A stretch of 64,000 nt of DNA from Lutibacter sp. Hel_I_33_5 (GTDB lineage: Bacteria; Bacteroidota; Bacteroidia; Flavobacteriales; Flavobacteriaceae). The notes under the pieces were generated by a model. That model was not told the DNA's origin, did not search any database, and worked only from the letters and a program-made list of their open reading frames with translations. Where the stretch lies: positions 1,837,501 to 1,901,500 of the forward strand of contig NZ_VISM01000001.1 in NCBI RefSeq assembly GCF_007827455.1, given 5' to 3'. This document shows, one piece after another, positions 37,315 to 52,286 of the stretch; position 1 is the stretch's first letter, and every line of letters starts with the position of its first letter. The position numbers and the translations under genes are program-made.

Positions 37315-39408
37315 TTATTTAACTATTATTTTTTTCATGAAACTCCCGTTTTCACCAGTTTTTAAAGTACAAAAATAAATTCCAGACACAATATTTAAAG
37401 TTGATTTAGATAAATTTATGTGTTGTAATCCTGAACTGTAATCCTTTGATTTAGATTTGTAAACAGTTTTACCTTGTATATTTCTTATTACAATTTGAAG
37501 TTTACTAAGATGCTTTAAGTCAACTTCTATATGAAGTTCATCTTTAATTGGATTTGGAAAAATTCGAAGTAAATCATTTAAACTTGGTGTTGATTCAACA
37601 TTTAATGAACTTGTTAAATACGTTCTTAAAACATCTTTTTTGTAAAAAAGAAGATCATTTGTTTTCCATTTTTTAGAAAGAAAATTAATACTATTTCCAT
37701 CTTCATCAGCTATAAATACATCTTCTAATTCTTGACCATCATTTATAATAAAACTTACGTTATTATTTATTGCTTTATTTTCATCAGATACAGTTACAAA
37801 AGCCATATTATTTGATATTTCTGTAGTGATATCTATGGTTTCCCTAGCTTTCCAATAATCACCAAAAACATTTAATTCTTCTACAAACATCCCTTCAGGT
37901 AATTTTGAAAGCAATAATTTTTGCGCTTCAAGTTTATAGTTTCTATTTGGGTGAATTAATAAAACAGCTGGTGCTTCATTTGCATCTGTTTTTTTAAGGA
38001 CATCTAACCAAACGGCTACTTTATTAATATAATTATTCTCAGTAATCGGAGTCTCTTTAAAAATATCAGAAATTGTAACAGGTATTTCATAAACTTTAGA
38101 TGTTTTACCACTAAAACTTCTGTTCATTTTATTTTGATAAGGAAAATGTGTTAAAACATCGTTTGCATTATTGCTAGAATTGTAAGAATACCCTAATGAA
38201 TCTAACACATTTATTAGATAATTATTATAAGCAAGATGTCCAGACCTAAATGATTTAATTTCTAGTGAATAATCTTTTTCTAACATGTTTTTTGATACTT
38301 CGCATTCTCCAAAAACACTTCCGTTTTCTGTACTTTTTCCATCATTATAAGGAGTATAATTTTCTTTTGTATTGCCAGTTTTGCCTTCAGGAAATATACT
38401 ACTGCTTGCAAAATCTGGAAAATGACCAACAGAATGTGATCCTATTGAATGACCCTTATTTATGATATTATTAATTTCAGTTTCTCTATTATTATAAAAA
38501 TCTGAATTAAGTGCATCAGAAAAATAACGGACTGTTATATTAAAATTTGAATTAATATTCATTTCTCTTTCAGTGTCAGCAAATAAAGACATCATATCCA
38601 TTCCAGAAGAACTATCTACATCATGTGTAATCATTAATGTTGATGTAGAATTACCAGGACTGGTATGTTTCCATGTTAAAAATTGAATGTGTTCTTTGGC
38701 TATAGATCTTATAAATAAGATAAAAACATCTTGAGTTGGTTCAAAACCATTCCCATTTGTTCTTTGAGCTTCATAATCTCGATTAAATTGATTTCGAAGA
38801 ATTACATCTTTCCAAGAAACCCCAAAGCTATATGTAAAACCTTTACCACTTGGGCTTTTAAAAGCTGCAGTAGTTCCATTATTATAAGTTCCTAAAGAGG
38901 TAGCAGTATCAACAATATAACTATAGGTTTTAATTACTTTTTCTAAATCTTTATCTCCTAAAGAAATTTGTTTTTCATAATCATCATCCATCCAATTATA
39001 GTTTTTTGTAGAAAGATTTTTCGACCAATTTATAGTATGATTTGTTTTTGTACTCGAAAAACTAGAGATGTTAAACAAAGAAAATAAATCAGCATCTAAC
39101 ATTCTTGGAGTAATTAAAACACCTCCTTTAGCAACATAATCTATAAGTGATAATTTTTCATCATCACTAAAACTTTTAGAATTAATTTCTGATGAACAAA
39201 AAATAATAGCATGATCTAAAGATTCTATTAAGCTTTCTTTAATAATATACTGAATACCAGTAACTTTAAGAATGTGTTCTGCAGAAAACAAATTACTATC
39301 ATTTGTTTCTGAGTTTCGCAAACTCATATCTAAAATAGCAATGTTTCTATTTTGATTAGTTGCGCTAATTGTTGTTATGGTAAACAGTATTATTATTAAA
39401 AGTTTCAT
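37315..39408 (-). CDS. T9SS-secreted polysaccharide deacetylase-like protein
   Basis: 697 residues. Signal peptide, then a region resembling a glutamine-amidotransferase-like (GATase1/DUF2194-style) domain at about 20-115 (DHAIIFCSSEI, YVAKGGVLITPRM). A NodB-type deacetylase-like domain follows at about 255-510: TLMITHDVD (catalytic acids), HSIGSHSVGHF (His ligands), SFRSGHLAYN and PAVLLIHP. The C-terminal 75 residues are a Por/T9SS sorting domain (RIFPNPIKDELHIEV, GIYFCTLKTGENG). In this cluster it probably trims or deacetylates an exported polysaccharide. Confidence 0.75.
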   Translation of the reverse strand: MKLLIIILFTITTISATNQNRNIAILDMSLRNSETNDSNLFSAEHILKVTGIQYIIKESLIESLDHAIIFCSSEINSKSFSDDEKLSLIDYVAKGGVLITPRMLDADLFSLFNISSFSSTKTNHTINWSKNLSTKNYNWMDDDYEKQISLGDKDLEKVIKTYSYIVDTATSLGTYNNGTTAAFKSPSGKGFTYSFGVSWKDVILRNQFNRDYEAQRTNGNGFEPTQDVFILFIRSIAKEHIQFLTWKHTSPGNSTSTLMITHDVDSSSGMDMMSLFADTEREMNINSNFNITVRYFSDALNSDFYNNRETEINNIINKGHSIGSHSVGHFPDFASSSIFPEGKTGNTKENYTPYNDGKSTENGSVFGECEVSKNMLEKDYSLEIKSFRSGHLAYNNYLINVLDSLGYSYNSSNNANDVLTHFPYQNKMNRSFSGKTSKVYEIPVTISDIFKETPITENNYINKVAVWLDVLKKTDANEAPAVLLIHPNRNYKLEAQKLLLSKLPEGMFVEELNVFGDYWKARETIDITTEISNNMAFVTVSDENKAINNNVSFIINDGQELEDVFIADEDGNSINFLSKKWKTNDLLFYKKDVLRTYLTSSLNVESTPSLNDLLRIFPNPIKDELHIEVDLKHLSKLQIVIRNIQGKTVYKSKSKDYSSGLQHINLSKSTLNIVSGIYFCTLKTGENGSFMKKIIVK

Positions 39409-39419
39409 GTTTTTATTTA

Positions 39420-41363
39420 TTAGTTTCCTATTTGATTAAAACTTGCTGTGTTTAATGCATTAGGATTTGATGCCGAGATTTCAAATATCGCATCGTTAAA
39501 ATCATTATCACCGTTTGGTACCGTAATGTCTTCAAAAGCAATCACAGTAGAATTACATGTTGCATCATAAAAAATAATACTTTGCTGTCTTCCACTTCTA
39601 TTAAATTCAATATCTGTATGTTGAGAATAATAACCATCCGTTATTTTTCCATCCCTCCAGCCATTTGCTATTAAGAAAAAACTAATAACGGTTCCTGGTT
39701 CAAAATTGCCTAATAAACGCATTGTATTTCCTCTAATTAATTCTCCTCCAGAACGATCTGCTGATGCATTTGGAAATATGACTATTTTGTCTAATTGCTC
39801 TTCAGCAGTTGGTTTATTTCCTTCTTGGTAAGTATAATATCCTAAGACATTTTTATAACCAGCACCTTCATCAATAAACGTTAATGATAATTCTGTTTCT
39901 TCAGTTACTACTATGTTTTTAACTGGATTAGAAAAATACTCTGGATGATCTCTCATAGCGTTTCTTCTCTCGGGTAAAACATTAGCGTAAATGTTAGGTA
40001 ATAATGTGCTACATACAATTTTATCTTCTTCTAAACCATCTGGTTTTCCGTTATTATTATAAGTAGTTATTGTTTTGTACTCGTCTTTTTTCCTTTTTCT
40101 TAAAATTTTAAAACCACCATTTCCTTTGGCTACAAAAACCCATTCACCATCAGCAATTATATAATTTGCAGATGCATCTTCTTCTGCTAAATCCCAATAA
40201 AAAACTGGATTAATTTTTTCTCCTGTAGTGGTTGGATGCGGAGAAATTGAAATACCATCAGAACCATTGGCAGCATAGACATAATCGATATCTGTAGAAA
40301 CACCGTTGGTGTTTCCTGCAACTAACATAGTACCTTTAGATTCGTTTTTTATAGTTCCGTTTGTAACATCTACTAAAGCCAATCCATCTTTTCCTTTAGC
40401 TATATAAAGTTGATTATCATTAATTGGAGAAAATTCCATCGTAGATTTCCCTCTGTAGGTTTCAACAACATTTTGATGAAAAATTTCGCCAATAGTAAAT
40501 GTTTCAGTAGTTAGATTATCGTCCACATTATCAACTTTAATTTTAGCATTATCACCTGTAACCAAACTCACTACTTTTTTACCATTTGATGTTCCGTTTA
40601 CAGCGACATATTTTGCATTGCTATATTTTTCTGAAGATATTGGTGACAAATCGCTTTTACGTAATTGAATAGTACCACCAAAGGTTTTACCGGAAGTAAC
40701 ATATAGATAATCATCTGTTACAGCAATGCCATTTGCAGAAGCAGAAACACCATCTTTAAATATGTTTGATAAGTTTACTCTTTTATAATTTTCAGTAAAT
40801 AAACCATTGCTTGTTTCTAATTCAATTAATTGCCCTCCATGAGTTGCATCAGACATTGCTAGCCATACTTTTCTTGCAGATGAATTTCCAGAAAAACCTG
40901 AAGTGATTGCATTAATATCAGATTTTAAGAAGGTTGCTTGAGTGCTGATTTCTGGAAAATTTGCATTGGTTAAATCTATAATTTCTACTGCTCCTAAATG
41001 TTCATCTCCTTGTTTATGATAACTTACATAAGCTTTATCATCATTTAATGTAATATGCGTTGCACTTAATGTTTTGCCTTGTAAAACTAGTGGTGCAACT
41101 TCTGCAACATGTTCCCAGTAATATAATTCTTGCGCTCCATTAACATTGGAAGCACTTTGTAATCTCCCGTTTGATAAACCACTTATAATTGGTTTAATGG
41201 TAGCTGTTCTATTGATATAATTAATTCTTGATGATAAAAGCGCAGTAGAATTGTTAATTTTATAAGGTACTTCCTCAATTTCTGCTTCAATTAAGGCATC
41301 CTCTTCTATAGTTGTTTGACAACTCGAAAAAATAATTAATATGATGAAACTATATAGTTTCAT
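39420..41363 (-). CDS. Large lipoprotein with propeller-like repeats and C-terminal DUF4114-like domain
   Basis: About 647 residues. The lipobox (FSSC, Cys15) sets the start at 41363 rather than 41405. The middle has LVIVD-like propeller blades (HLGAVEIIDLTNANFPEI, DGLALVDVTNG, YVYAANGSDGISI). The C-terminus (IAFEDITVPNGDNDFNDAIFEI) is DUF4114-like. It is 11 bp upstream of the deacetylase-like gene and is preceded by operator pair A. Role inferred: an envelope or polysaccharide-binding surface protein. Confidence 0.7.
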   Translation of the reverse strand: MKLYSFIILIIFSSCQTTIEEDALIEAEIEEVPYKINNSTALLSSRINYINRTATIKPIISGLSNGRLQSASNVNGAQELYYWEHVAEVAPLVLQGKTLSATHITLNDDKAYVSYHKQGDEHLGAVEIIDLTNANFPEISTQATFLKSDINAITSGFSGNSSARKVWLAMSDATHGGQLIELETSNGLFTENYKRVNLSNIFKDGVSASANGIAVTDDYLYVTSGKTFGGTIQLRKSDLSPISSEKYSNAKYVAVNGTSNGKKVVSLVTGDNAKIKVDNVDDNLTTETFTIGEIFHQNVVETYRGKSTMEFSPINDNQLYIAKGKDGLALVDVTNGTIKNESKGTMLVAGNTNGVSTDIDYVYAANGSDGISISPHPTTTGEKINPVFYWDLAEEDASANYIIADGEWVFVAKGNGGFKILRKRKKDEYKTITTYNNNGKPDGLEEDKIVCSTLLPNIYANVLPERRNAMRDHPEYFSNPVKNIVVTEETELSLTFIDEGAGYKNVLGYYTYQEGNKPTAEEQLDKIVIFPNASADRSGGELIRGNTMRLLGNFEPGTVISFFLIANGWRDGKITDGYYSQHTDIEFNRSGRQQSIIFYDATCNSTVIAFEDITVPNGDNDFNDAIFEISASNPNALNTASFNQIGN

Positions 41364-41461
41364 TTTTTTAGTAATTCTGAATAGGTACATAATTTTTGTT
41401 TTCATTTTTATTGATTTTATAAGTGTAAATGTATTTTTAAAGTCAAGTTTTATAGTTTGTT

Positions 41462-41495
41462 TTTAGACTATTGACTTTTTGCTTTTGACGAATGC
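41462..41495 (-). promoter_or_regulatory. Putative LytTR operator A upstream of the lipoprotein/deacetylase operon
   Basis: Plus-strand TTTAGAC (41462) and TTTTGAC (41483) are spaced 21 bp. The second continues GAATGCC, as in the shared 13-mer TGTAGACGAATGG. A further, inverted TGTAGAC-type copy (GTCTACA, 41501-41507) with the short palindrome GACGAATGCCATTCGTC overlaps the GT2 stop. Confidence 0.55.
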
Positions 41496-41502
41496 CATTC
41501 GT

Positions 41503-42825
41503 CTACAGTCCAGCTCTTTTAGCTTGTATAGATGACTTGTATGGATTCCATGGATCTTCAAAAGAGCGTTTAAAAAAGAACTCTTTATAGTAAGCTATGG
41601 TTCTAATGATTCTTAAATATGTACCCGTATATAATGTCATAATTGACACGTAAGGCCACAAGTATTTTTCTTCTTTTCTTCTTTCTGAAAAAATATAAAT
41701 ACTTAACATCTGTATATAAGACATAACTAGATAAAGTGTAAAATTCATTGGAATAATAAATTTTAGCGAGCTACTGTAGTTTACAATAATGTCGATAATA
41801 TAAATCCACCAAAGGATGTCTAAAACTACATTGTAAAACACATTTTCTGTAAGTGAAATAAAGTTTGACCAGTTAAAATTTGCCGTAGGAAAATACACAT
41901 CTTTATGTTTTCTAACTCTAAAGCGAATAATCGATTTGTCCCAACGTAAGCGTTGTTTGGTTAATACTTTAAATTTTGACGGTGCGTTTGTTAGGCAAAT
42001 TGCTTCTGGTTGAAAGTAAACTTTGTAACCAGATTTTCTAATTTTAACAGTTATATCTCCATCTAATCCTGGACCAATATCCCAACCACCAATACTATCG
42101 ATTACATCTTTTCTAAAGGCACCAAAAGCACCAGAAATTATCTTGTAAATTCCTAAATAAGAGGTAATAATTCTACCAACAGAAACAGTTTTTAAATATT
42201 CAATTGCTTGTAGTTTTGCACATAAACTTTCTTTATAATTTCTCACTTTTACATTACCACCAACAGCGGCAATTTTATTATCTAAATAAAAAGGAAGTAA
42301 TACTTTTTCTATAGCATCTGCATCAAAAGAACAATCTGCATCTAAGTGTACAATATATTTTCCTTTGCTATAACGTAAGGCTAAATTTGCTGCGGAAGCT
42401 TTTCCACCACGCATTTCATTTCTAATAAACATATCTATTAAGCCTAAACGTTCTAAGTTTTTTCCGATAATAGGCGTATCGTCATCAGAACCATCATCAA
42501 CAATAATTAATTCAAAATTTTTAAACGTTTGTTCTGCTAATGATTTTGTGAGTTTAAATAAATGTTTTCCTTCGTTTTTACCAGGAATAATTACTGATAC
42601 AAATGGATTTTCTTGAAAGAGTTTTCTTTTGGCTTCCTCAAATTTTTGACTTCTTTTTTTTCCTGTTAGATAAAAGATAAATGCAATGATATAGTCTATC
42701 ACAATGTATCTGGTAAACTCGAAAATGATGAAATACCAAAACACTCTAATAAATTTTGGCAGACCAACTACAAACCAATAATTTAAATATTCTGGAACTA
42801 AATTATGTACACTTAAAAATATCAT
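41503..42825 (-). CDS. Processive family 2 glycosyltransferase (exopolysaccharide synthase)
   Basis: 440 residues, membrane-embedded. N-terminal hydrophobic segments (to about 60) precede a GT-A core with DDGSDDDT (about 107-114), DADCSF (DxD, about 158-163), GPGLDGDITVKI (catalytic acid region) and KQRLRWDKS (QxxRW). C-terminal membrane helices follow. All four processive-synthase motifs are intact, as in BcsA, Alg8 and PgaC. It has no PilZ domain. Its start overlaps the preceding zinc-protein stop by 1 bp. Confidence 0.93.
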   Translation of the reverse strand: MIFLSVHNLVPEYLNYWFVVGLPKFIRVFWYFIIFEFTRYIVIDYIIAFIFYLTGKKRSQKFEEAKRKLFQENPFVSVIIPGKNEGKHLFKLTKSLAEQTFKNFELIIVDDGSDDDTPIIGKNLERLGLIDMFIRNEMRGGKASAANLALRYSKGKYIVHLDADCSFDADAIEKVLLPFYLDNKIAAVGGNVKVRNYKESLCAKLQAIEYLKTVSVGRIITSYLGIYKIISGAFGAFRKDVIDSIGGWDIGPGLDGDITVKIRKSGYKVYFQPEAICLTNAPSKFKVLTKQRLRWDKSIIRFRVRKHKDVYFPTANFNWSNFISLTENVFYNVVLDILWWIYIIDIIVNYSSSLKFIIPMNFTLYLVMSYIQMLSIYIFSERRKEEKYLWPYVSIMTLYTGTYLRIIRTIAYYKEFFFKRSFEDPWNPYKSSIQAKRAGL

Positions 42826-44195
42826 TAGAAAAAAGTGGTTAAGCTATCGGTTCCTAAAATTTTATGTGTATGGATTTCAATTTGTTGTTGTGTTCCTTCC
42901 AAATTATCTGTTAATAATTTGGTAAGGTTATATTGTATATTTTCTAAACGTTTAAGTTCAGTTTCATTTGTTTCTGGTAACAGTAAAAAGTAGTTATTAT
43001 AAGAGTTTGCAGATAAAACATCCGAAGGATTTAAATAGGACTTGATGATAGTACTAATTTCTTTTGTTAGATCTTGTTTTAGATCTTTATTTAATAATGC
43101 TAATTGTTCATATTGAAAATGAATTTTTACAAACAAACTGTTTCCGTTTGTAACTTTAATTCTATTAATTTCTTGATTTAATAGTAGCTTAAATAAATTG
43201 GTGTTTAAAGAACCAATTGGAACAACATCATTTTGTTTTGTTGCATTTTCTTTGGTTTTGAAGAGGTATTGTTCGCCAATTTCTGTGATCTTATAATTAC
43301 CAATAGTTTTTTCTAGCAATTCGTTTAACGTATTTTCTGTAGAACAGTCTAAACAAAGAGCTTTCATTTCTGCATTCTGAAATTCATGACTACAAGAATT
43401 ACAAGAATAAATAGAAGATGGTTTGTCATAATCTATTCCGATATGACGCAAATGTTTGTCACATTTTGGGCATTCTAAACCATCATCAATTTTAAAATCT
43501 TTTTCTGGAGCAACGTGGGCACACACAAAATGATGCACCATATCGTTGGAAATAATATCTATAGAACTACATTTAGGACAACATTCTCTAAAGTTTAAAT
43601 AATTACTTGTACAGCTTTTACACAAATGCACATAATCTTCTAATTTAAACGATACATAGTTGTTTTTTTGAGCTAATTCTAAGTTTTTTAATAATGATAT
43701 TGCTTCATTATTTTTATAAAAAAGAGATATAAATGGATACTCATATCCTATTAAACTTTTTCTATTAGAAACTGGTGTTAAGAGTAAGTTTCTCGAATAT
43801 AAAAACGCCAATGTTTTAAACTGAATTAAATTTTCATGTGTAAAATTTCTAGGTGATTTTAGAGTTGAAATTCTTTTATTAATTGTAATAATTCTTTGAA
43901 TATATGAGGACAACATAACGGCATCTAATGTACCATCCGTATTGATCATAATTTCGTTGGATAATGAATACATGTTATTAATAAAAAGAGGTAATAAACT
44001 AACTTGAATATTTTGATGTGTTCTTACTTCTTTTACAATTGAATAAGCCTCTTTTTCTGAAGCTGTGTCTATTACAAAACCATCTAAACGCTCTAAATCC
44101 ACTCCTTTAAGTTCGTTAACATGAGAGAGTAATAACAATTCATATCCCTCATGGATTAACGTTCTTTTATCGGATTTTTTTAAAATATTTAACAT
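42825..44195 (-). CDS. TackOD1-like zinc protein with GGDEF-like C-terminal domain
   Basis: About 456 residues. An N-terminal receiver-like alpha/beta region (about 1-130) is followed by a Cys-rich region with CKSCTSNY, CCPKCSS, CPKCDKHL, CNSCSH and CLDCS (about 190-290), reminiscent of the TackOD1 zinc-binding output domain. The C-terminal 130 residues look like a GGDEF fold, with SYNNYFLLLPETN where GGDEF-xLLPET would be. The catalytic GGDEF residues are absent, so it may be a non-catalytic regulator or nucleotide sensor. The ATG at 44195 is preferred over TTG at 44213. Confidence 0.6.
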   Translation of the reverse strand: MLNILKKSDKRTLIHEGYELLLLSHVNELKGVDLERLDGFVIDTASEKEAYSIVKEVRTHQNIQVSLLPLFINNMYSLSNEIMINTDGTLDAVMLSSYIQRIITINKRISTLKSPRNFTHENLIQFKTLAFLYSRNLLLTPVSNRKSLIGYEYPFISLFYKNNEAISLLKNLELAQKNNYVSFKLEDYVHLCKSCTSNYLNFRECCPKCSSIDIISNDMVHHFVCAHVAPEKDFKIDDGLECPKCDKHLRHIGIDYDKPSSIYSCNSCSHEFQNAEMKALCLDCSTENTLNELLEKTIGNYKITEIGEQYLFKTKENATKQNDVVPIGSLNTNLFKLLLNQEINRIKVTNGNSLFVKIHFQYEQLALLNKDLKQDLTKEISTIIKSYLNPSDVLSANSYNNYFLLLPETNETELKRLENIQYNLTKLLTDNLEGTQQQIEIHTHKILGTDSLTTFF

Positions 44196-44221
44196 GATTT
44201 TTAATTTTATCAATTGGTAGT

Positions 44222-45586
44222 TTATAGAGACATATAAATCTCTTCTGGAAAACGATCTTTTTTATCACCTTTTACATCAAAAATGATAGTTTCTGAAGTG
44301 CCGTTTTTTAAATAATCGTAGTATGCTAAGTGCTTGTAGTTTTCATGATCTACCGCCAAAATAATAGCATCATATTCTTTTTTCGGGGTTTTTACAATAT
44401 CGATTCCATATCTAGATTTTACCTCATCAGCTTCTACTAAATAATCATGAACATCAACATTAAAACCTCTACTAATTAGGTGTAAGCATAATTCTGCGGT
44501 TTTAGAATTCCTGATGTCATTTACATCCTCTTTAAAAGCAATTCCTTTTACTAAAATGCTAACTTGTTGTTTTCTAAATCTTTTAGAAAATAACCTTCTT
44601 TCTAGTTGCACGCCAATATGTTGAATCATACTTTCATTAACCTCTCTTACTTGTTCTAATAATTTAGGCGTGTACTTCATTTCTTTTGCTTTGCTGATTA
44701 AATAATATGGATCTACGCCAATACAATGTCCACCAACTAAGCCTGGAAAATAATTATGAAAATTCCATTTGGTACCTGCCGCTTCTAAAACATCTTTTGT
44801 ATTAATGTTTAAATGACTAAAGATTTTTGATAACTCATTCATTAAACCAATGTTTACATCTCTTTGTGTATTTTCAACCACTTTTGCAGCTTCAGCAACT
44901 TTAATTGTTGGTGCTTTATGAACACCGGCAATCACAACTTCTTCGTACACTTTTGATACAGTTTCTAAAGATTCTTTAGTACTTGCAGCAACAACTTTTT
45001 TAATTTTAGTAAACGTATGTTTCTTGTCTCCGGGATTAATTCTTTCAGGTGAATAACCAACCGTAAAATCTTCATTAAATTTTAATCTAGAAATTCTTTC
45101 TAAAATAGGGACACAAATTTCCTCTGTACAACCTGGATAAACCGTAGATTCAAAAACAACACAGTCGCCTTTTTTTAAGTATTTAGCAATGGTTGCTGTG
45201 GCAGATTTTATAGGTGTTAAGTTTGGTTTCTTTTGATCGTCTATTGGAGTTGGAACTGCAACAATATAAAATTTAGCGTTTTTTAGTATTTCATCATTGG
45301 CTGTAAAGTTGATGTCTTTTCCTAAAAATTCATCTTCAGATAATTCGTTGCAAGGATCTTTATGTTGTAAAAGCTGTAATACTTTTCCTTCATTTAAATC
45401 AAAACCAATAACCTTAAATTTTGACGCCATATGAACTGCTAAAGGCAATCCAACATATCCTAAACCAACAACAGCCATTGAATTTTTCTTGTTGATTAAA
45501 TTGTTAAATAATTGATCTTTTTTGTACGCTAATTTTGGAAAATTTTCCCCTTTACTTTCTTTGTTAATTTTAATTGCTGTATTCAT
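44222..45586 (-). CDS. UDP-sugar 6-dehydrogenase (UDP-N-acetyl-hexosamine dehydrogenase type)
   Basis: 454 residues. The N-terminal NAD domain has AVVGLGYVGLPLAVHMASKFKVIGFD (about 38-63). YIVAVPTPID and VVFESTVYPGCTEE follow, with the active-site Cys in FPGLVGGHCIGVDPYYL (about 280). The FPGLVGGHCIGVDPYYL block fits WbpA/TviB/CapL-type dehydrogenases that make UDP-HexNAcA. It supplies an acidic sugar nucleotide, implying a uronate-containing polysaccharide. First gene of the operon with the zinc protein and GT2 synthase, preceded by operator pair C. Confidence 0.9.
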   Translation of the reverse strand: MNTAIKINKESKGENFPKLAYKKDQLFNNLINKKNSMAVVGLGYVGLPLAVHMASKFKVIGFDLNEGKVLQLLQHKDPCNELSEDEFLGKDINFTANDEILKNAKFYIVAVPTPIDDQKKPNLTPIKSATATIAKYLKKGDCVVFESTVYPGCTEEICVPILERISRLKFNEDFTVGYSPERINPGDKKHTFTKIKKVVAASTKESLETVSKVYEEVVIAGVHKAPTIKVAEAAKVVENTQRDVNIGLMNELSKIFSHLNINTKDVLEAAGTKWNFHNYFPGLVGGHCIGVDPYYLISKAKEMKYTPKLLEQVREVNESMIQHIGVQLERRLFSKRFRKQQVSILVKGIAFKEDVNDIRNSKTAELCLHLISRGFNVDVHDYLVEADEVKSRYGIDIVKTPKKEYDAIILAVDHENYKHLAYYDYLKNGTSETIIFDVKGDKKDRFPEEIYMSL

Positions 45587-45679
45587 ATCTATTAGATTTT
45601 ATAATGTTTTTATTTATACATCAAATTTACTTCAACATCAAGTATTTTGTTTGTATTATTGGCTTATCAAATAGTTCTC

Positions 45680-45713
45680 TGTGGATAAAATTGCAGTGAG
45701 TGTAGACGAATGG
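45680..45713 (-). promoter_or_regulatory. Putative LytTR operator C upstream of the dehydrogenase-GT2 operon
   Basis: Plus-strand TGTGGAT (45680-45686) and TGTAGAC (45701-45707) are spaced exactly 21 bp; the second extends to TGTAGACGAATGG. It lies about 95-125 bp before the dehydrogenase start. Confidence 0.65.
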
Positions 45714-45742
45714 CTTTTATCGATTTTTAATCATTTAGCAAT

Positions 45743-45773
45743 AAAAAAACCTCAACATAGTATGTTGAGGTTT
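45743..45773 (-). terminator. Rho-independent terminator of the TolC/HlyD operon
   Basis: The 13-bp stem AAACCTCAACATA / TATGTTGAGGTTT with a 1-nt centre and a T-rich tail on the reverse strand, about 25 bp after the HlyD-like stop. Confidence 0.85.
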
Positions 45774-45797
45774 AGAAGCTTGAATGATAAATTATTT

Positions 45798-46817
45798 TTA
45801 AAATTTCCCAATTTTTATTTTTAGGTTTAGCTTATAAAATTTAGCCCATTCTTTTGTTTGAGTTGTGTCTAGTGGCACAATTTCTGTAAGTATATTTCTT
45901 TCTGTAGGCTCATATTTTTTTTGAAATTCAGTCGGAGCTTTATAGGTAGAAATGTAGAGTTTATTTATAATTCCTTCGGATGTTGTTTTATCTGGAAATT
46001 CAACTTGAACGAGATCTCCTTTTTTAATATTTGCCAAATCTTTTAAATCAAAATACGCTTTAATAAATACTTTTTCTACATTATGTATGGTCATAACATT
46101 TTCTGCTTTATAACAAGATTCTTCGCTATTTTTCAAAATCTGACCCACAACACCTTTAATTGGAGAGATATACGTATTTTGATAGTTGTTTGAATTGTTT
46201 AATAAAAGGTTAGAACTTGGCTGTAACATCTTTTTTTGCAAAGACAGAAAGTACAATTCGTTTTTTAGGACATTAATATCATTTTCTACTTGTAGTTTTA
46301 AGGAAATTACACCGTCTAATTTTGTTTTTGTATATACGTCTAACAAGACTAATTTTGTTACTTTTTTTTCTTGAATTTTTAGATATGCTAACTTTTTTTG
46401 TAAACCTTTTAAGCGGATACTATTTAGATGTATCTGTTTTAAAATAGTTGCTAAATTATTAGATGTTTGTTCTTTTTTATCTAAATTTTTTAATACTAAT
46501 GAAGCATCACTATCAAAATTATTTTGAAAATAATTAAACAGTTTTGTTCCAACTGTAACAGTATCTCCTTCATTTATAAAAAGTTGTTTTAAACGAATAT
46601 CGTTTGTAAAATTTACATCTACTTTATCCATTAACATTTGTCCATTACCTTCTAACCAGACAGTTTTTTTATAAATAAAACTAGAGAGCCAAATAAACAA
46701 TCCAAGAATAATTAATAAGTATAAAACTCTATCAAAATTAAATTTCTTCTTTTTTATTTTTGGTTCTTTTAAGGTTCTTATAATTGCTTTTCCTTTTTTA
46801 TAATTAAATGCTTTCAT
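45798..46817 (-). CDS. HlyD-family membrane fusion/periplasmic adaptor protein
   Basis: About 339 residues. A single N-terminal membrane segment (VLYLLIILGLFIWLSSFIY) precedes a biotinyl-lipoyl-like half (VDVNFTNDIRLKQLFINEGDTVTVGTKLFNYF), a coiled coil (about 75-165), the second lipoyl half (YISPIKGVVGQILKNSEE) and a beta-barrel domain. The arrangement fits HlyD/Alg44-like adaptors. No ABC transporter is adjacent. The ATG at 46817 is preferred over TTG at 46844. It overlaps the TolC-like gene by 14 bp. Confidence 0.85.
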   Translation of the reverse strand: MKAFNYKKGKAIIRTLKEPKIKKKKFNFDRVLYLLIILGLFIWLSSFIYKKTVWLEGNGQMLMDKVDVNFTNDIRLKQLFINEGDTVTVGTKLFNYFQNNFDSDASLVLKNLDKKEQTSNNLATILKQIHLNSIRLKGLQKKLAYLKIQEKKVTKLVLLDVYTKTKLDGVISLKLQVENDINVLKNELYFLSLQKKMLQPSSNLLLNNSNNYQNTYISPIKGVVGQILKNSEESCYKAENVMTIHNVEKVFIKAYFDLKDLANIKKGDLVQVEFPDKTTSEGIINKLYISTYKAPTEFQKKYEPTERNILTEIVPLDTTQTKEWAKFYKLNLKIKIGKF

Positions 46818-48336
46818 GTTGTATTCTTTTAAGTTCTTCTTCAATAAAATTTTCTACTGTTTTTATTGTTTTTTGTTCTTTTTCAAGGATTATGATTGAT
46901 GATTTTTTTAGTTTATTTCTTAGCTGATTATCCTCTAAAACAACTTCCCTAATTTTTTTAGCTTCAAGAAATTCTAATTGAAATTTGAGAGAATATTTTT
47001 TACTTTCTTTTAATAATAATGGTTGTTTTTTGTTCTTTTCATCAAAATAAAAATGTTTAAAAAGTGTGTTTAGATTATTGGTGTCATTTAATTCAAAAAA
47101 ACGTGTAATAACTTTATACAACTGTCTTTTTAATTGCAGCATATTTTCTAGAACTTTAAATTGCTCTTCCATCATTTCTAAAATTAGCAAGCCAGAATTT
47201 TCTGTTTCAACTTCTTGTTTTAGAAGTTTTAAAACTCTAATCCGCTCATCTATTACTTGCCAACTTTTATATTGATTTCTTAAGTCTTTTAACTTTTCAT
47301 TATATTCATTTACATAAGTAATTGTTAGATTATACCTACCTAAAGATTTGTCTGTTTCTTGAGCTTGTAAAATTTTAATTTTTGTTTTAATTATTTTTTT
47401 GCGATTATTAAATCTAATAGGAGCTTTAAAACGGAAACCAACAGCAGGAAAATAACGCTGTAAAGTTGGTGTTTGTAGATAATTCTGATTGACATAAAAC
47501 GATAAGTTTATATCATTTAATGCATGATTTTGAAGTCGAATATTTTCTTCTGCGAATTGTTTTTTTTGAGGCGAATTTGTTACAGAAAAACTGTCTAAAT
47601 TAACGACTAATAGAGGTAGTTTTTTAGTAGTTAAATATTTTTCAGAAACACTGTCTTGTAGTAGTATATTTTCCTTTTCTACCGTTTTAAGTTGATTTTT
47701 TAAAACCTGAATTTGATTGCTTACTTTTAGTAAACGTTCTCTTTTAATTAGTTTTTGGTAGTACAGTTTATTTAAAAAATCGAAAAAGCTATTTTCAAAG
47801 GCTAAGAAGTTTGTGTGAAGATTAATTACCTCTTTATTTAAAATAAAATTATAATCAATTCTAAACTGTCTTCTCCATAATTGTTTTTCAACTTTTTCTG
47901 AATCAAGTTTTAAAATTTCAATGATATTTTTTATTCTTTTGGCTTTAACCTTATTATAAACAAAACCCATTTTTAAAACATTCCACTCCAATTCTGCTCT
48001 AAAACTTGTTTTGATATAACTGTTGGTTTCTTCGTCTATTATATTTCTAAAATTATGATTTCCACTAGCTTTAAAAACTAATCCGATATCTTTTTTATAT
48101 TGATTCGATTCTAATTCTTTTAAATCTATTTCTAATAAATTAAGGTTTTTATTTTTTTTGACTCCGGGTTTAATAAATGATAAAGAAGTGTTTTTTTCTT
48201 GATGAGGAAACGTCAAAAAAGGAGCTGTTTTATTGATTAAATTTTCAGATTCTTTAACTAACTCTAGTAAAGATTGACTGGAAATTTTACAGGTAAAGAA
48301 CAATAATAGTACGATATATAAATTCCTCGGTTTCAT
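46804..48336 (-). CDS. TolC-like outer-membrane efflux protein
   Basis: 510 residues. A signal peptide (LYIVLLLFFTCKISSQS) is followed by long alpha-helical coiled-coil stretches and short beta segments, the OEP/TolC pattern (e.g. FRAELEWNVLKMGFVYNKVKAKRIKN, and GLLILEMMEEQFKVLENMLQLKRQLYK). The repeat is weak, so it is a divergent member. It is first in a two-gene operon with the HlyD-like gene and is preceded by operator pair B. Confidence 0.75.
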   Translation of the reverse strand: MKPRNLYIVLLLFFTCKISSQSLLELVKESENLINKTAPFLTFPHQEKNTSLSFIKPGVKKNKNLNLLEIDLKELESNQYKKDIGLVFKASGNHNFRNIIDEETNSYIKTSFRAELEWNVLKMGFVYNKVKAKRIKNIIEILKLDSEKVEKQLWRRQFRIDYNFILNKEVINLHTNFLAFENSFFDFLNKLYYQKLIKRERLLKVSNQIQVLKNQLKTVEKENILLQDSVSEKYLTTKKLPLLVVNLDSFSVTNSPQKKQFAEENIRLQNHALNDINLSFYVNQNYLQTPTLQRYFPAVGFRFKAPIRFNNRKKIIKTKIKILQAQETDKSLGRYNLTITYVNEYNEKLKDLRNQYKSWQVIDERIRVLKLLKQEVETENSGLLILEMMEEQFKVLENMLQLKRQLYKVITRFFELNDTNNLNTLFKHFYFDEKNKKQPLLLKESKKYSLKFQLEFLEAKKIREVVLEDNQLRNKLKKSSIIILEKEQKTIKTVENFIEEELKRIQHESI

Positions 48337-48375
48337 TACTCAAAGCTATGAATAACAAGGGTTTTAGGTGTTTTT

Positions 48376-48410
48376 TATCGACTAATGATTCATTTACTGT
48401 GGATAAATGG
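48376..48410 (-). promoter_or_regulatory. Putative LytTR operator B upstream of the TolC/HlyD operon
   Basis: Plus-strand TGTGGATAAATGG (48398-48410) is close to the shared 13-mer TGTAGACGAATGG. A weaker partner TATCGACTAATGA begins at 48376, spacing 22 bp. It lies 40-74 bp before the TolC-like start. Confidence 0.5.
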
Positions 48411-48431
48411 TTTGTGAGTATTGCTAAAAGG

Positions 48432-49142
48432 TTACAATAAATTTAAACGTCTTTTAAGTTCATTCCTATTAGATCTACTTACCGGAATAATATCTTGTTT
48501 TATAAGCACACTACTATCTTCTATATCAACAATTTTATTGATATTTATTACATAAGATCTGTGTACTTTTAAGAAACTTTCCACAGGTAATTTTTCTTCA
48601 ATCTTTTTTAAAGGACAATGTACAATGTGGTTTTTTTCTTCGGTTTTTATTTTAATATAATCTCCTCTAGCTTCAATTACATAAATACTTGGAATATCAA
48701 TTTTAACCAATCGTCTGTCAATATTTACATAAAGTGTATCGGTACTATTTTGACTTTCCACTTTTTTTGTTGGCGTAGAAGTATTAACTAAACTAATGGC
48801 TTTTACTTTTGCAACAGCTTTCTTTAAACGTTCTAATTCTATAGGTTTTACGATATAATCTACCACAAAAGTATACTCAAAAGCTTCTATTGCAAAGTTT
48901 CTATCGGAAGTAGTTAATATAATTTTAGGTGGATTCTTTAAACTTTGAATAAAGTCAAAACCATCAAAATCTGGCATGTGGATGTCAAGAAAAATAACAT
49001 CTACGGTGTTTTTATTTAAAAACTTCATAGCCTCTAAAGCATTAGAAAATTGCCCTACTATATTTAACTCAGGAATATCTTCTGCAACCTGACTTAAAAT
49101 TGTTCTTGCCACTAATTCATCATCTACTATTATACATTCCAT
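48432..49142 (-). CDS. LytTR-family response regulator
   Basis: 236 residues. The receiver (about 1-120) has the acidic pair VDDE, phospho-acceptor Asp in IFLDIHMPD (about 54) and Lys in DYIVKPIE. The LytTR DNA-binding domain follows (about 135-236; LYVNIDRRLVKIDIPSIYVIEARGDYIKI, LKVHRSYVININKI, IPVSRSNRNELKRRL). It is the probable output of the H-NOX phosphorelay, since its gene overlaps the Hpt gene by 23 bp, and it probably binds the direct repeats found upstream of its own operon and the polysaccharide operons. Confidence 0.95.
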   Translation of the reverse strand: MECIIVDDELVARTILSQVAEDIPELNIVGQFSNALEAMKFLNKNTVDVIFLDIHMPDFDGFDFIQSLKNPPKIILTTSDRNFAIEAFEYTFVVDYIVKPIELERLKKAVAKVKAISLVNTSTPTKKVESQNSTDTLYVNIDRRLVKIDIPSIYVIEARGDYIKIKTEEKNHIVHCPLKKIEEKLPVESFLKVHRSYVININKIVDIEDSSVLIKQDIIPVSRSNRNELKRRLNLL

Positions 49143-49461
49143 CTTGTAATTTATTTATATAATTTTTCATTAGGGGTAGCATTGATTCAAAATATTTTTG
49201 ATTTATTATTTTTTCTTCTCGTAAGCTATTTTCAAAATCGTTGGTTAATTCATAACTTTTTTCAAGTCCCAAAATCACCATTTTATGTTTAATTCTATGT
49301 ACTATTTCTTTAGTTTTCTTTAAATCAGATTCTTTAAAAAAACGATAGTAGTCGTCTATTTCTGTAAATAATTCTTCTTTAATTATGGTAATTATCTTTT
49401 TTTCAAAGTCGAAATCACCTTTAGAAATTGTTTTAATATATGATAAATTGGGTTCTTCCAT
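49120..49461 (-). CDS. Histidine phosphotransfer (Hpt) protein
   Basis: About 113 residues forming a single Hpt domain. The likely phospho-His is in EIVHRIKHKMVILGL (about 53), in place of the usual HxLKG motif, since Gly is replaced by His. It would relay phosphate from the kinase or its receiver to the LytTR regulator. The gene lies 2 bp downstream of the kinase and overlaps the regulator start. Confidence 0.8.
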   Translation of the reverse strand: MEEPNLSYIKTISKGDFDFEKKIITIIKEELFTEIDDYYRFFKESDLKKTKEIVHRIKHKMVILGLEKSYELTNDFENSLREEKIINQKYFESMLPLMKNYINKLQDGMYNSR

Positions 49462-49463
49462 CG

Positions 49464-51182
49464 TTACTTTTTTATGGTGAAATAAAAGGTAGTTCCTTTA
49501 TTTACTTGAGATTCTACCCAAATTTCGCCTTTATAGATATCAACTATTTTTTTTACAACAGAAAGACCAATACCTGTAGAGTCTTTTGCTTTTTTAAGTG
49601 ATTGAAAGATTTTAAAGATTTTAGTAAAATGCTTTTTCTCTATTCCAATACCATTGTCTTTTACAGAAAACTTATAAAAAGATTTATGTTCTTTAACATC
49701 AATTTCTATGGTTCCTTGCGGCTTATCATTAAACTTTATTGCGTTTTCAATTAAGTTCTGAAATAATCTTTGATATAAGGTTTTATCACCATACAATATA
49801 GGTAATTTCTTAGTAGTTTTTATTGTAATATTTTCTGGAACATATAAAAGTTGGATAATATCCTTTATTAAAACGTCTAATGCTACTGGGTCTTTTATTT
49901 GTTGATTTGCTTCTAAACTAGAATAACTTAAAACATCAGAAATTAATGATTCCATTTTTTCTAAGGTCAATTCTATATCATTAAAATACTGCAAGCTTGT
50001 TTGATTATAACTATCAATATTATCGGTTTTAAGCCAAGATGTTAATGCATATAAACTTCTTAATGGAGATTTTAAATCGTGCGTAACAATGTGCGCATAT
50101 TCTTGTAATTCTTCATTATTTTTTTCAAGCGTAAGTAGCAATTCTTTGTTTTGGGTTTCTGCTTTTTTTCGTTCTCTTAAATTAATAGCGCTTTTAAGTT
50201 GTAGCGCCACCAAATTTGCAATGTTTTGTATGGTAATTAAATGCTCGGGTGTAAAATGGTTTTTATTTTTATGTTCTGCATCAATAATACCAATCACATT
50301 TCCTTCACTTATAATTGGTACAGTTATTTCTGACAAACGATTTTCATCATCCAAAACATACCGATTATCAATACTTGTATCATTAATTATTTCTGGATTT
50401 CCAGACTTTGCTACGCTGCCTACAATTCCTTTACCAATTGGTAAAATTATTTTATTTGCTATTTCTTTTTTAGGGTTTAGTTTGTTATCAAAAGCTGCTA
50501 TTTGTTCTAAGGTATTTGTTGAATGATCTACTAAATATATAACACAATCATTTGTGCCAAGATAATTAGCTATCGAGCTCGATATTTCCCATGCTATTTC
50601 ATAAATATTTTCTTTTCCTAGAATAGATTTTACGGTATTATTAATCATATCTAGGATAATTCTTTTTTCTCGTTGATGAGTAACATCTCTAATAATACCT
50701 TGAACAGCAATAGCATTTTTTTGATTATCGTACACTACACTAGCATTAATATTTACCCATTTTATTTGATTTTCTTTAGTGAGTATTCTAGCATTATAAT
50801 TAGTGAAATTCCCAGTAATTAATAATTGTTTAAATGAGTTAATTGCATATGTATAATCCTCTTTATAGACTAAGCTGTTAATATTTAAATGATTGTTATT
50901 TAGAGTATAACCGAGAAGTTCCTCAGCATTTTCATTCATTTTTAAAACATTTCCTTCAATATCAACAACTATATAAGCATCGTTTATATTTTCAAAAATT
51001 CCTTTTAATTGCGAAGTTTTTTCGTCTAATAATGATTCTAATTTGGTATTTGCAACTTTTAATTTTTCTGAAGTATTATATAATTCCAAAGACTTTTCTT
51101 CAAGAATTTTTTCTGCTTGTTTTCTAGCTTTTATTTGCCTTTCTAGGGCTCTTTCTAATATTTCAATTTTTGAATTTTTCAC
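49464..51182 (-). CDS. PAS-GAF sensor histidine kinase (H-NOX partner)
   Basis: 572 residues, cytoplasmic with no membrane segment. N-terminal coiled coil (about 1-55), PAS with PAC (about 57-170; GIFENINDAYIVVDIEGNVLKMN), GAF (about 180-340), HisKA with YAHIVTHDLKSPLRSL (His about 366), HATPase with NLIENAIKFND, DNGIGIEK and STGIGLSVVKKIV. It starts with GTG overlapping the H-NOX stop (TAGTG), so it is translationally coupled to the heme sensor. It has no own receiver, so phosphate probably goes to the stand-alone receiver and/or via Hpt. Confidence 0.95.
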   Translation of the reverse strand: MKNSKIEILERALERQIKARKQAEKILEEKSLELYNTSEKLKVANTKLESLLDEKTSQLKGIFENINDAYIVVDIEGNVLKMNENAEELLGYTLNNNHLNINSLVYKEDYTYAINSFKQLLITGNFTNYNARILTKENQIKWVNINASVVYDNQKNAIAVQGIIRDVTHQREKRIILDMINNTVKSILGKENIYEIAWEISSSIANYLGTNDCVIYLVDHSTNTLEQIAAFDNKLNPKKEIANKIILPIGKGIVGSVAKSGNPEIINDTSIDNRYVLDDENRLSEITVPIISEGNVIGIIDAEHKNKNHFTPEHLITIQNIANLVALQLKSAINLRERKKAETQNKELLLTLEKNNEELQEYAHIVTHDLKSPLRSLYALTSWLKTDNIDSYNQTSLQYFNDIELTLEKMESLISDVLSYSSLEANQQIKDPVALDVLIKDIIQLLYVPENITIKTTKKLPILYGDKTLYQRLFQNLIENAIKFNDKPQGTIEIDVKEHKSFYKFSVKDNGIGIEKKHFTKIFKIFQSLKKAKDSTGIGLSVVKKIVDIYKGEIWVESQVNKGTTFYFTIKK

Positions 51183-51721
51183 TAATTTTTTTTGATAAAA
51201 AATCGGACTTCAGTACCATCTTCTTTAATTTTTTCTAATAAAATAGTTGCTGTTGAATTAAAATGTTCAAAAGTCTTATTCATTAAACCCAATCCAAAAT
51301 GATGCATGGCTCTACTAGATTTATAGACCATTGTTAATGAGTTTTCGGTTTTTTCTTCTACAATAAAAGTAGGTAATTCTGCATCAGGATATATTTTTCT
51401 TACTTCTATATGAATATGATTTTCTATAGAAGACAACATTTCTATAGGGTCTTTATACGTATTTAAAAGACCAGGATAACTCTTCTCTAAAACACTAAAA
51501 AAGTGTTCTGCATAGACCAATAATAAATTGTCTATAGAAAGCCCTGTATTATTACTTAAATTACTTAAAAGACTTAACATTTCTGCAAACTTGTACGTGC
51601 CGATAGAGGTATAACTTCCGCCAGATTCTAATTTAGATTGTTCAATAATAGTATCCACCATTTCTAAACCAAATTTATCTTCAACTAAATCTAGAAACTC
51701 AGTAAAAACAATTCCTTTCAT
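51182..51721 (-). CDS. H-NOX (heme nitric-oxide/oxygen binding) domain protein
   Basis: 179 residues, a complete single H-NOX domain. MKGIVFTEFLDLVEDKFG opens the fold. The proximal heme His is His104 in HIHIEVRKIYPDAELP. The heme-propionate motif Y-x-S-x-R is intact (YKSSR, Tyr133-Ser135-Arg137). Stand-alone H-NOX proteins encoded beside histidine kinases sense NO and inhibit or tune the kinase. Its stop overlaps the kinase GTG by 1 bp. Partner genes strongly support an NO-sensing role. Confidence 0.93.
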   Translation of the reverse strand: MKGIVFTEFLDLVEDKFGLEMVDTIIEQSKLESGGSYTSIGTYKFAEMLSLLSNLSNNTGLSIDNLLLVYAEHFFSVLEKSYPGLLNTYKDPIEMLSSIENHIHIEVRKIYPDAELPTFIVEEKTENSLTMVYKSSRAMHHFGLGLMNKTFEHFNSTATILLEKIKEDGTEVRFFIKKN

Positions 51722-51727
51722 ATTGTA

Positions 51728-52132
51728 TTATGTTTTAAATTCATTAAGATTCCAGTATTTAATAACTGTAAGAATCTTTTCTTCGTACTCTTCATATTTT
51801 AAAGGTTTAATAATATATCCAGCTATACCAATTTCGTAACATTCTTTTATATCTTTTTTGTTGTTTGATGTAGTTAATACGATGGTAGGTATATGTTTTA
51901 GTGTACGATTATTTTTTAAAATTGTTAGAAATTCGATACCATTAGTATCTGGCATGTTTAAATCTAGTAAAATAATATTAGGTGTTTCATTTTTAAGTGA
52001 AATCAACGCTTCTTTGCCATTTATAACGTGCGATATATTGAAGTTATTTGCATTATTAGAAGTAGCTCTAGTAAATTTTAGCACTTCTAATCTATCGTCT
52101 TCTATCAATAAAATATTTAGTTTTTTTTCCAA
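51728..52132 (-). CDS. Stand-alone CheY-like receiver protein
   Basis: 134 residues, only a receiver domain: acidic pair LIEDDR, phospho-acceptor Asp in IILLDLNMPDTNG (about 59), Thr in IVLTTSNN and Lys in YIIKPLKYEE. There is no output domain, so it may be an intermediate of the phosphorelay. It starts with TTG (52132). First gene of the receiver - H-NOX - kinase - Hpt - LytTR operon. Confidence 0.93.
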   Translation of the reverse strand: MEKKLNILLIEDDRLEVLKFTRATSNNANNFNISHVINGKEALISLKNETPNIILLDLNMPDTNGIEFLTILKNNRTLKHIPTIVLTTSNNKKDIKECYEIGIAGYIIKPLKYEEYEEKILTVIKYWNLNEFKT

Positions 52133-52209
52133 GGATAAAAAGTAATTTTATATAAAAGTAATTTTTTTATCCTTAGAAATAGATTTGCTTAGTTAATTAT
52201 CTGTTTTAC

Positions 52210-52243
52210 TGTAGACCAATGGAATTTAAGTGTAGACGAGTTG
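52210..52243 (-). promoter_or_regulatory. Putative LytTR operator D upstream of the sensory operon
   Basis: Plus-strand TGTAGAC occurs twice, at 52210-52216 and 52231-52237, exactly 21 bp apart, the spacing of LytTR direct-repeat sites. The first continues CAATGG, as in the shared 13-mer. It lies about 78-111 bp before the receiver start, suggesting autoregulation. Confidence 0.65.
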
Positions 52244-52261: not shown

Positions 52262-52286
52262 AAAAAACCACGCAAAAAGCGTGGTT
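52262..52286 (-). terminator. Rho-independent terminator of the suf operon
   Basis: Reverse-strand AACCACGC / GCGTGGTT with a 5-nt loop and a T-tail, about 30 bp after the sufD stop. Confidence 0.85.

Follow-up and report, generated by a model that had tools for sequence, protein, structure and literature searches.

The 64,000-nucleotide stretch analysed here (the window; positions 1837501-1901500, G000:C1, of the single-contig 3.1 Mb genome of Lutibacter sp. Hel_I_33_5) carries a sensory operon with an H-NOX heme protein and a LytTR regulator, beside genes for a predicted surface polysaccharide. We consider it likely that together they form a transcriptional nitric oxide (NO) response circuit, in which the H-NOX relay acts through LytTR on paired sites at surface-polysaccharide promoters. 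The proposal draws on the observed gene content, pair geometry, placement of the pairs at separate transcription units, conservation, and absence of GGDEF and PilZ matches. A preliminary description of this DNA had tied the relay to the polysaccharide operons through shared operators; placement, geometry and conservation support that link, with binding of the regulator predicted from sequence. The operators do stand at the H-NOX-linked promoters, and the motif is not exclusive to the H-NOX relay, since a paralogous relay carries it as well.

By analogy with other H-NOX systems, NO on the H-NOX heme would modulate the adjacent PAS-GAF kinase. The domain content suggests that phosphate would then pass from the kinase His to the Asp of a stand-alone receiver, to the His of an Hpt-like protein and finally to the Asp of the LytTR receiver. 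Phosphorylated LytTR would bind head-to-tail pairs of YMWTTCRTCKAYA boxes, 21 or 22 bp apart, and its predicted targets are its own operon and the TolC-HlyD, dehydrogenase-TackOD1-GT2 and lipoprotein-T9SS protein units (GT2, glycosyltransferase family 2; T9SS, type IX secretion system). These last three units would make and export a polysaccharide, presumably a uronic or aminouronic product. Regulation is probably activation, because the sites lie upstream in fixed orientation.

Operator pairs in the window

The box consensus was taken in gene orientation, and head-to-tail pairs were scored with a 13-position matrix. All four repeat pairs of the preliminary description were recovered in place on the minus strand, three with a spacing of 21 bp and the TolC pair with 22 bp. 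The putative operator of the sensory operon (52210..52243) lies 78 bp before the start codon and scores 29.8 with the held-out matrix, that of the TolC operon (48376..48410) lies 40 bp before its start codon and scores 22.3, and that of the dehydrogenase operon (45680..45713) lies 94 bp before its start codon and scores 23.8. The putative pair of the lipoprotein operon (41462..41495, boxes at 41462 and 41483) stands at the described position but is weak taken alone (7.5).

When the matrix trained on other genomes was run over all 64 kb and both strands, four pairs exceeded 13 bits. The three top-scoring ones directly precede the receiver, dehydrogenase and TolC genes, and the fourth (14.6) begins at 41495 on the plus strand, where an exact 13-mer consensus box (41495..41507) stands in the opposite orientation. 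This plus-strand box reaches into the end of the GT2 gene; together with the putative lipoprotein box at 41483-41495 it constitutes an inverted repeat. The single 13-mer matched 15 times in the window (shuffles: mean 9.9, with 5 of 100 reaching 15) and 194 times in the genome (reversed control: 175); single-box counts were dropped as evidence, since they are enriched in neither. The signal lies in the pairing, a single box meaning little.

Conservation of the pairs at sensory and polysaccharide promoters

The matrix was trained on 59 sensory promoters (upstream of the receiver) from loci that have no synthase block next to them; among these, L114 of G002 comes from a genome with an unlinked synthase copy. 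Of 66 sensory promoters, 65 outscored 99% of the dinucleotide shuffles (1320 in all), and 56 outscored every one. The spacing in those 65 was 21 bp in 63 and 22 bp in 2, and the pairs began 92-149 bp before the inferred start, mostly at 108-123 bp, the promoter of L100 being the lone exception. In ten-fold cross-validation, 62/66 passed the 99.9% shuffle level (1980 shuffles), and 21 bp was the best spacing in 61. All seven held-out loci in which the relay adjoins the synthase block scored above the shuffle maximum at the sensory promoter.

For the promoter tests the threshold was set at 13.9, the maximum of 2260 shuffles. Across the seven linked Tenacibaculum loci (the window and six relatives), this was exceeded at the receiver in 7/7, at TolC in 7/7, at the dehydrogenase in 6/7 and in the gap after the GT2 gene (gt2), where the lipoprotein pair lies, in 6/7. 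No pair above 13.9 was found in the 250 bp before the operon-internal hlyD, tack and gt2 starts of these loci (0/21). Synthase copies that lie away from an H-NOX operon (L155, L156 and L157 in G002, G088 and G106) had no pairs before TolC, dehydrogenase or lipoprotein genes (0/9). All three genomes have H-NOX and a LytTR relative, and the siteless copies therefore serve as a natural control: the sites follow the H-NOX neighbourhood, not the presence of LytTR alone. Outside the promoters tested, a pair of 16.5 stands in L155 at the start of a neighbouring opposite-strand GT4 open reading frame (ORF), and one of 13.2 stands in L157, 422 bp before tolC.

The 74 H-NOX regions (1.34 Mb) contain 145 pairs with a spacing of 21 or 22 bp that exceed 18 bits, compared with 0, 3, 1, 1 and 1 in five block shuffles. 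A spacing of 21 bp accounted for 118 and 22 bp for 27, and the remaining spacings between 15 and 32 bp gave counts of 0-6 each. Judged from sequence, this geometry is what would be expected of LytTR sites, which are direct repeats in target promoters with a phase of roughly two helix turns. A general third in-phase box was rejected, the mean score at offset 42 staying below -9, even though some single promoters, L094 among them, seem to contain one. The H-NOX matches of G079 (L151) and G048 (L152) are split in two, with internal stops in G079, which suggests decay; their sensory pairs persist.

Linkage of the H-NOX relay to the synthase locus

Strong HlyD relatives were found as 10 copies in 8 genomes of the genus (Tenacibaculum), among 194 relatives searched. 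Seven of the ten synthase copies adjoin an H-NOX operon and carry the operators; the other three, of a second locus type, are the unlinked copies described above. One synthase copy of G117, from another family, also adjoins an H-NOX operon, with protein identities of 25-75%.

A TackOD1 alignment scan covered one genome each for 84,980 species, and the best 80 of 380 relatives were kept. Among these best 80 loci, GT2 was present in 79, HlyD in 78, TolC in 43, dehydrogenase in 26, LytTR in 28 and H-NOX in 15. Four of the 15 H-NOX-bearing loci were Tenacibaculum contigs already counted, leaving 11 further loci with H-NOX and synthase genes within the 10-kb flanks: Flavicella, a Seonamhaeicola metagenome-assembled genome (MAG), Spongiivirga, Winogradskyella, an Aquimarina MAG, two Flavobacteriaceae MAGs, Sediminicola, two Saprospiraceae MAGs and Puteibacter (Marinilabiliales). 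The H-NOX/polysaccharide linkage proposed for relatives was thus borne out by seven of ten copies in the genus and by these 11 loci.

Eight loci not labelled Tenacibaculum have a LytTR 62-69% identical to that of the window (L212, L216, L217, L219, L220, L221, L222 and L246). Their pairs stand at the receiver in 7/7 (L221 is cut before the receiver), at TolC in 7/8 (L212 scores 12) and at the dehydrogenase in 8/8, and the gap after gt2 was positive in 4/6 (negative in L219 and L220; L221 is cut, and in L246 this gap is the receiver promoter). The block order of L246 is rearranged, and the pairs still stand at receiver, TolC and dehydrogenase. Conservation of the repeats upstream of orthologues therefore extends from the genus to these eight loci. 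By comparison, in the 52 loci that matched neither LytTR nor H-NOX, only 2 of 71 promoters exceeded 14.6.

A second kind of H-NOX relay (H-NOX-HK-REC-LytTR, HK being a histidine kinase) was found in L130, L243, L252, L266 and L275, where LytTR is more distant (37-42% identical in tblastn). H-NOX has thus been joined to this synthase with two relay kinds. A de novo repeat search in them returned a 21-bp repeat at tolC of L266 and otherwise high scores of low complexity; the search is insensitive, because it misses the window's own dehydrogenase pair.

Regulon and specificity

Receiver promoters account for 58 of the 145 pairs. The other target classes, whose families were checked on representatives, include T9SS proteins (11 entries), STAS (10), GT4 (6), GT2 including REC-GT2 (4), Wzx-like flippases (3) and others. 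The cassette that contains the L105 sites also encodes a dehydrogenase, an epimerase, a flippase, a Wzy-like protein and a Wzc-looking protein without a Pfam match. A pair also precedes a receiver-GT2 glycosyltransferase fusion at L094:3-977. Among 52 synthase-free H-NOX regions longer than 15 kb, the sensory site exceeded 18 in 43, additional sites were seen in 32, and 38 contained one or more of the four polysaccharide-type genes searched for. Searched genus-wide, an operator model matched at E up to 0.05 in 77/110 genomes. In the window's own genome the sensory operator ranked first (E 0.006). The next match (E 0.009) falls within a mechanically called 89-amino-acid ORF, about 145 bp ahead of a GT4 glycosyltransferase gene; another own-genome match falls inside a carboxylase-like ORF (L293).

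Both receiver and H-NOX occur in 69 regions, and in 53 of these LytTR follows in operon direction, no more than 7 kb away. A FIST (NosP-kind) gene was present in 28 of the 69, none of them synthase-linked, and no FIST match was found in the window or its seven synthase-linked relatives (L130 included). At L111:5705-7893 and L148:5902-8087, a FIST (NosP-like) protein and a further kinase-type gene lie between the H-NOX kinase and Hpt.

Several observations weigh against the proposed circuit. Two pairs of the linked loci stayed below the threshold, namely the dehydrogenase pair of L085 (12) and the lipoprotein pair of the window, although the same gap after gt2 scores 19-22 in all six linked relatives. 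Twenty of the 145 sites lie inside an ORF or have no ORF start within 450 bp. A further site was lacking in 20 of the 52 synthase-free regions, and 14 had none of the four polysaccharide-type genes. LytTR was missing from the operon in 11 of the 69 receiver and H-NOX regions (outside the region in nine, elsewhere in it in two; five more regions were too short), and the operator motif was absent from the five loci with the second relay kind. The operator-model search is insensitive, its 39 own-genome matches at E up to 10 omitting the TolC and dehydrogenase operators, and it also returned matches in genomes without H-NOX (G009, G012 and G021). The window's own genome has 20 LytTR matches, and a paralogous REC-HK-Hpt-LytTR operon without H-NOX lies at C1:957186-960835 (L291:9187-12836), its LytTR being 55% identical. 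Finally, Balneolota loci L225, L228 and L232 have dehydrogenase pairs (33, 34 and 20) together with a PAS-kinase relay. No H-NOX precedes the kinase in L232, and L225 and L228 end at that point; the relay of L228 includes an Hpt-domain protein. L226 has one pair (21) and L227 none.

The paralogous relay carries the same motif, with a pair upstream (18.8) and another downstream of its LytTR (20.5), close after which no same-strand ORF of 80 amino acids follows. Exclusive control by the LytTR of the window was therefore rejected as unproven, and since a second relay without H-NOX has the same boxes, control of the polysaccharide genes may be shared between sensors. Carried further, the operators might serve a whole LytTR clade, with the paralogous relay binding the same sites and NO being one input of several. 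The paralogue, the PAS-kinase relays of Balneolota, the operator-model matches in genomes without H-NOX and the 11 H-NOX regions without LytTR in the operon all point that way, whereas the three unlinked synthase copies, siteless in genomes that have both H-NOX and a LytTR relative, point to the H-NOX neighbourhood. We regard this alternative as possible but doubtful. That a regulator other than the adjacent LytTR binds the pairs is quite improbable: the 20 LytTR matches leave room for one, and assignment of the pairs to the adjacent protein is a prediction from sequence, but pairs and a similar LytTR co-occur over genera and a phylum boundary, even with changed gene order, and direct repeats in 21-bp phase are a habit of LytTR proteins such as AgrA and ComE.

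Control of surface-polysaccharide promoters by the H-NOX relay through the adjacent LytTR thus stays the preferred reading. Across the genus, sensor and operators are constant and the neighbouring surface genes vary. We lean slightly towards a wider interpretation, a modular switch of Bacteroidota from NO to surface polysaccharide that does without cyclic di-GMP (c-di-GMP), in which a LytTR/21-bp operator core is fixed while sensors (H-NOX, H-NOX with NosP-like FIST, other PAS kinases) and polysaccharide pathways (GT2/HlyD/TolC synthase, Wzx/Wzy-type, T9SS surface proteins) are exchanged.

The sensory operon

Every gene of the preliminary description was found in its place, and for receiver, H-NOX, PAS-GAF kinase and LytTR the ORF positions and Pfam matches agree. 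The operon, on the minus strand, runs in the order receiver, H-NOX, PAS-GAF kinase, Hpt and LytTR. The stand-alone receiver (REC, 51728..52132) matches PF00072 at E 8.1e-22. The H-NOX protein (51182..51721) scores 134.2 bits with PF07700 (HNOB; curated cut-off 25.5) and belongs to this family, and its residues 1-179 align with PDB 6bdd at E 9.5e-97. A proximal His and YxSxR make up the H-NOX heme motif; the protein has H104 and Y133-K-S-S-R137, which are kept in the four aligned PDB chains shown. The structure 6bdd is presumably the Kordia algicida H-NOX, and NO binding by the window protein would follow from the family and from this relative. The kinase (49464..51182) has HisKA, HATPase_c, PAS and GAF domains and no receiver of its own. 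The regulator (48432..49142) has both domains of a LytTR response regulator above cut-off (PF00072, 72.0 bits; PF04397, 70.5 bits).

The Hpt assignment did not hold for the window protein alone (49120..49461; PF01627 E 0.0025, below cut-off), and a solved-structure search with it gave no matches. It is upheld by its homologues, as all 13 aligned match PF01627 (E up to 1, best 8.1e-7) and share an invariant His in the motif VHxxKHK, which places the protein among Hpt proteins.

The relay could also work as drawn with H-NOX reporting heme redox state, oxygen or another ligand instead of NO. The relevant precedent is a 'Cc' H-NOX, which we take to be that of Caulobacter. Other lines of evidence favour NO, namely the end-to-end alignment of the window protein with 6bdd and the FIST (NosP-kind) proteins in 28 of the 69 receiver and H-NOX regions. 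Activation by oxidation is reported for 'Cc' H-NOX in the available part of PMC12329717, while a molecular dynamics study, as far as its text was available (PMC7356049), describes an active site of Ka H-NOX that favours NO. On balance, a ligand or signal other than NO seems unlikely, and the relay is best read as an NO relay.

A terminator-like hairpin (52266..52286, minus strand) lies between sufD and the sensory operator, and another (45747..45773, minus strand) between hlyD and the dehydrogenase operator. Standing directly before these operator pairs, the hairpins indicate separate transcription units. Terminator-like sites numbered 10, compared with 3.9 in shuffles; a sigma-70 scan was uninformative (104 sites and 102 in shuffles).

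The polysaccharide genes and the c-di-GMP question

All ORFs of the described TolC/HlyD/dehydrogenase/TackOD1/GT2/lipoprotein/T9SS block are present, on the minus strand. The TolC-like outer-membrane channel (46804..48336) had no Pfam or NCBIfam match, and its AlphaFold model (pLDDT 83.8) resembles TolC channels. Through this model it was assigned to the TolC fold (Foldseek E 2.5e-13, target TM-score 0.56), yet with a root-mean-square deviation of 12.1 over 454 columns. The HlyD-like periplasmic adaptor (45798..46844) scores 24.0 bits with PF13437, slightly above the cut-off of 22.2. The nucleotide-sugar dehydrogenase (44222..45586) is above cut-off with TIGR03026 (375 bits) and falls short of the TviB dehydrogenase model NF011729 (416.4 bits vs a cut-off of 592). 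The GT2 synthase (41503..42825; PF00535, 91 bits) likewise lies outside the poly-N-acetylglucosamine synthase model PgaC/IcaA, TIGR03937 (170.9 bits vs a cut-off of 422.3).

Between dehydrogenase and synthase, a Cys-rich TackOD1 protein (42825..44213; TackOD1 176 bits, cut-off 32) ends in a GGDEF-fold domain. The earlier account of a zinc/GGDEF-like protein was therefore right about the fold, while the signature is degenerate and the intact GGDEF motif of an active diguanylate cyclase was not found in this protein. It may be a regulatory subunit replacing PilZ. The lipoprotein (39420..41405) contains DUF4114 (PF13448, 51 bits). The last gene encodes a T9SS-sorted protein (37315..39408), whose tail stood up to checking (PF18962, 48 bits), while its deacetylase-like part is sub-threshold (PF01522 E 0.0028, below cut-off), leaving it possibly polysaccharide deacetylase-like; a solved-structure search with it gave 0 matches.

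The assignment of a polysaccharide product is itself a prediction, and TolC/HlyD and GT2 might not be one exporter, the export pair carrying another cargo. This is very unlikely given how constantly the genes travel together among the best 80 of 380 TackOD1 loci (GT2 in 79, an HlyD-like gene in 78 and a TolC-like match in 43). We therefore retain a single polysaccharide export system.

H-NOX occurs in 68 of the genus genomes searched. GGDEF (PF00990) was found above cut-off neither in the window's own genome (0/1) nor in the genus (0/110), EAL proteins not being searched for; one partial GGDEF match, in G041, lies just below cut-off. PilZ (PF07238) was likewise found in neither (0/1 and 0/110), so that the absence of PilZ noted beside the alginate-like gene order holds genus-wide and a PilZ receptor of the alginate type was not found. 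Because 110 genomes contain no GGDEF above cut-off and no PilZ match, a c-di-GMP output of the H-NOX relay is unlikely, and the earlier suggestion that signalling does not run through a diguanylate cyclase is stronger than first stated.

Comparison with known systems

Taken singly, H-NOX, LytTR, four-step relays and GT2/HlyD/TolC export all have precedents; the combination was not found in the literature searched, which consisted mostly of titles outside subscription and of partly available texts. The same search returned no H-NOX to LytTR circuit with operators at polysaccharide promoters and no paper on the GT2/HlyD/TackOD1 synthase class. TackOD1 is treated in PMC5847659, in the part available. 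Our findings point to such a synthase class, with 380 TackOD1 relatives in one scan, and the operators offer a regulon motif for reading the surface-sugar loci of marine Bacteroidota.

The LytTR regulators AgrA, ComE and AlgR are REC-LytTR proteins that bind direct repeats about 21 bp apart, and AlgR also acts on an exopolysaccharide promoter. Unlike these, the regulator described here would take its input from an H-NOX four-step relay, and the box sequence differs. S-nitrosylation of AgrA is covered in the available text of PMC6769237. On the export side, a GT2-type synthase, an HlyD-like adaptor and a TolC-like channel are shared with the cyanobacterial XcsA-XcsB(HlyD-like)-TolC cellulose model, which is called unvalidated in the accessible part of PMC12430437. 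The XcsA synthase has a PilZ domain, whereas the present locus has the TackOD1/degenerate-GGDEF protein, a sugar dehydrogenase and a DUF4114 lipoprotein.

The Vibrio H-NOX-HqsK-LuxU system, as far as PMC8738867 and PMC12329717 were available, likewise has an H-NOX-controlled kinase that feeds a separate phosphotransfer protein. That pathway joins quorum sensing and its kinase contains the receiver, whereas in the window a gene of its own encodes the receiver and LytTR would be the last step. NosP (FIST) NO sensors accompany related relays in the 28 regions given above, but not in the window. In the H-NOX-HK-HnoB/HnoD network of Shewanella oneidensis and Vibrio cholerae, the available part of PMC8738867 describes a c-di-GMP output through phosphodiesterase and diguanylate cyclase proteins, with an effect on biofilm; an older case of a transcriptional branch, in which a phosphorylated regulator relieves repression of the hno regulon, appears in the same text. 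Common to that network and ours are an H-NOX beside a histidine kinase and, as predicted for ours, phosphotransfer to separate regulators and a biofilm output. The H-NOX biofilm pathways in that text run through c-di-GMP enzymes or quorum sensing, whereas a genus with H-NOX in 68 genomes, and with GGDEF above cut-off in 0/110, would have a DNA-binding output, with LytTR as the predicted end point and paired sites at polysaccharide promoters.

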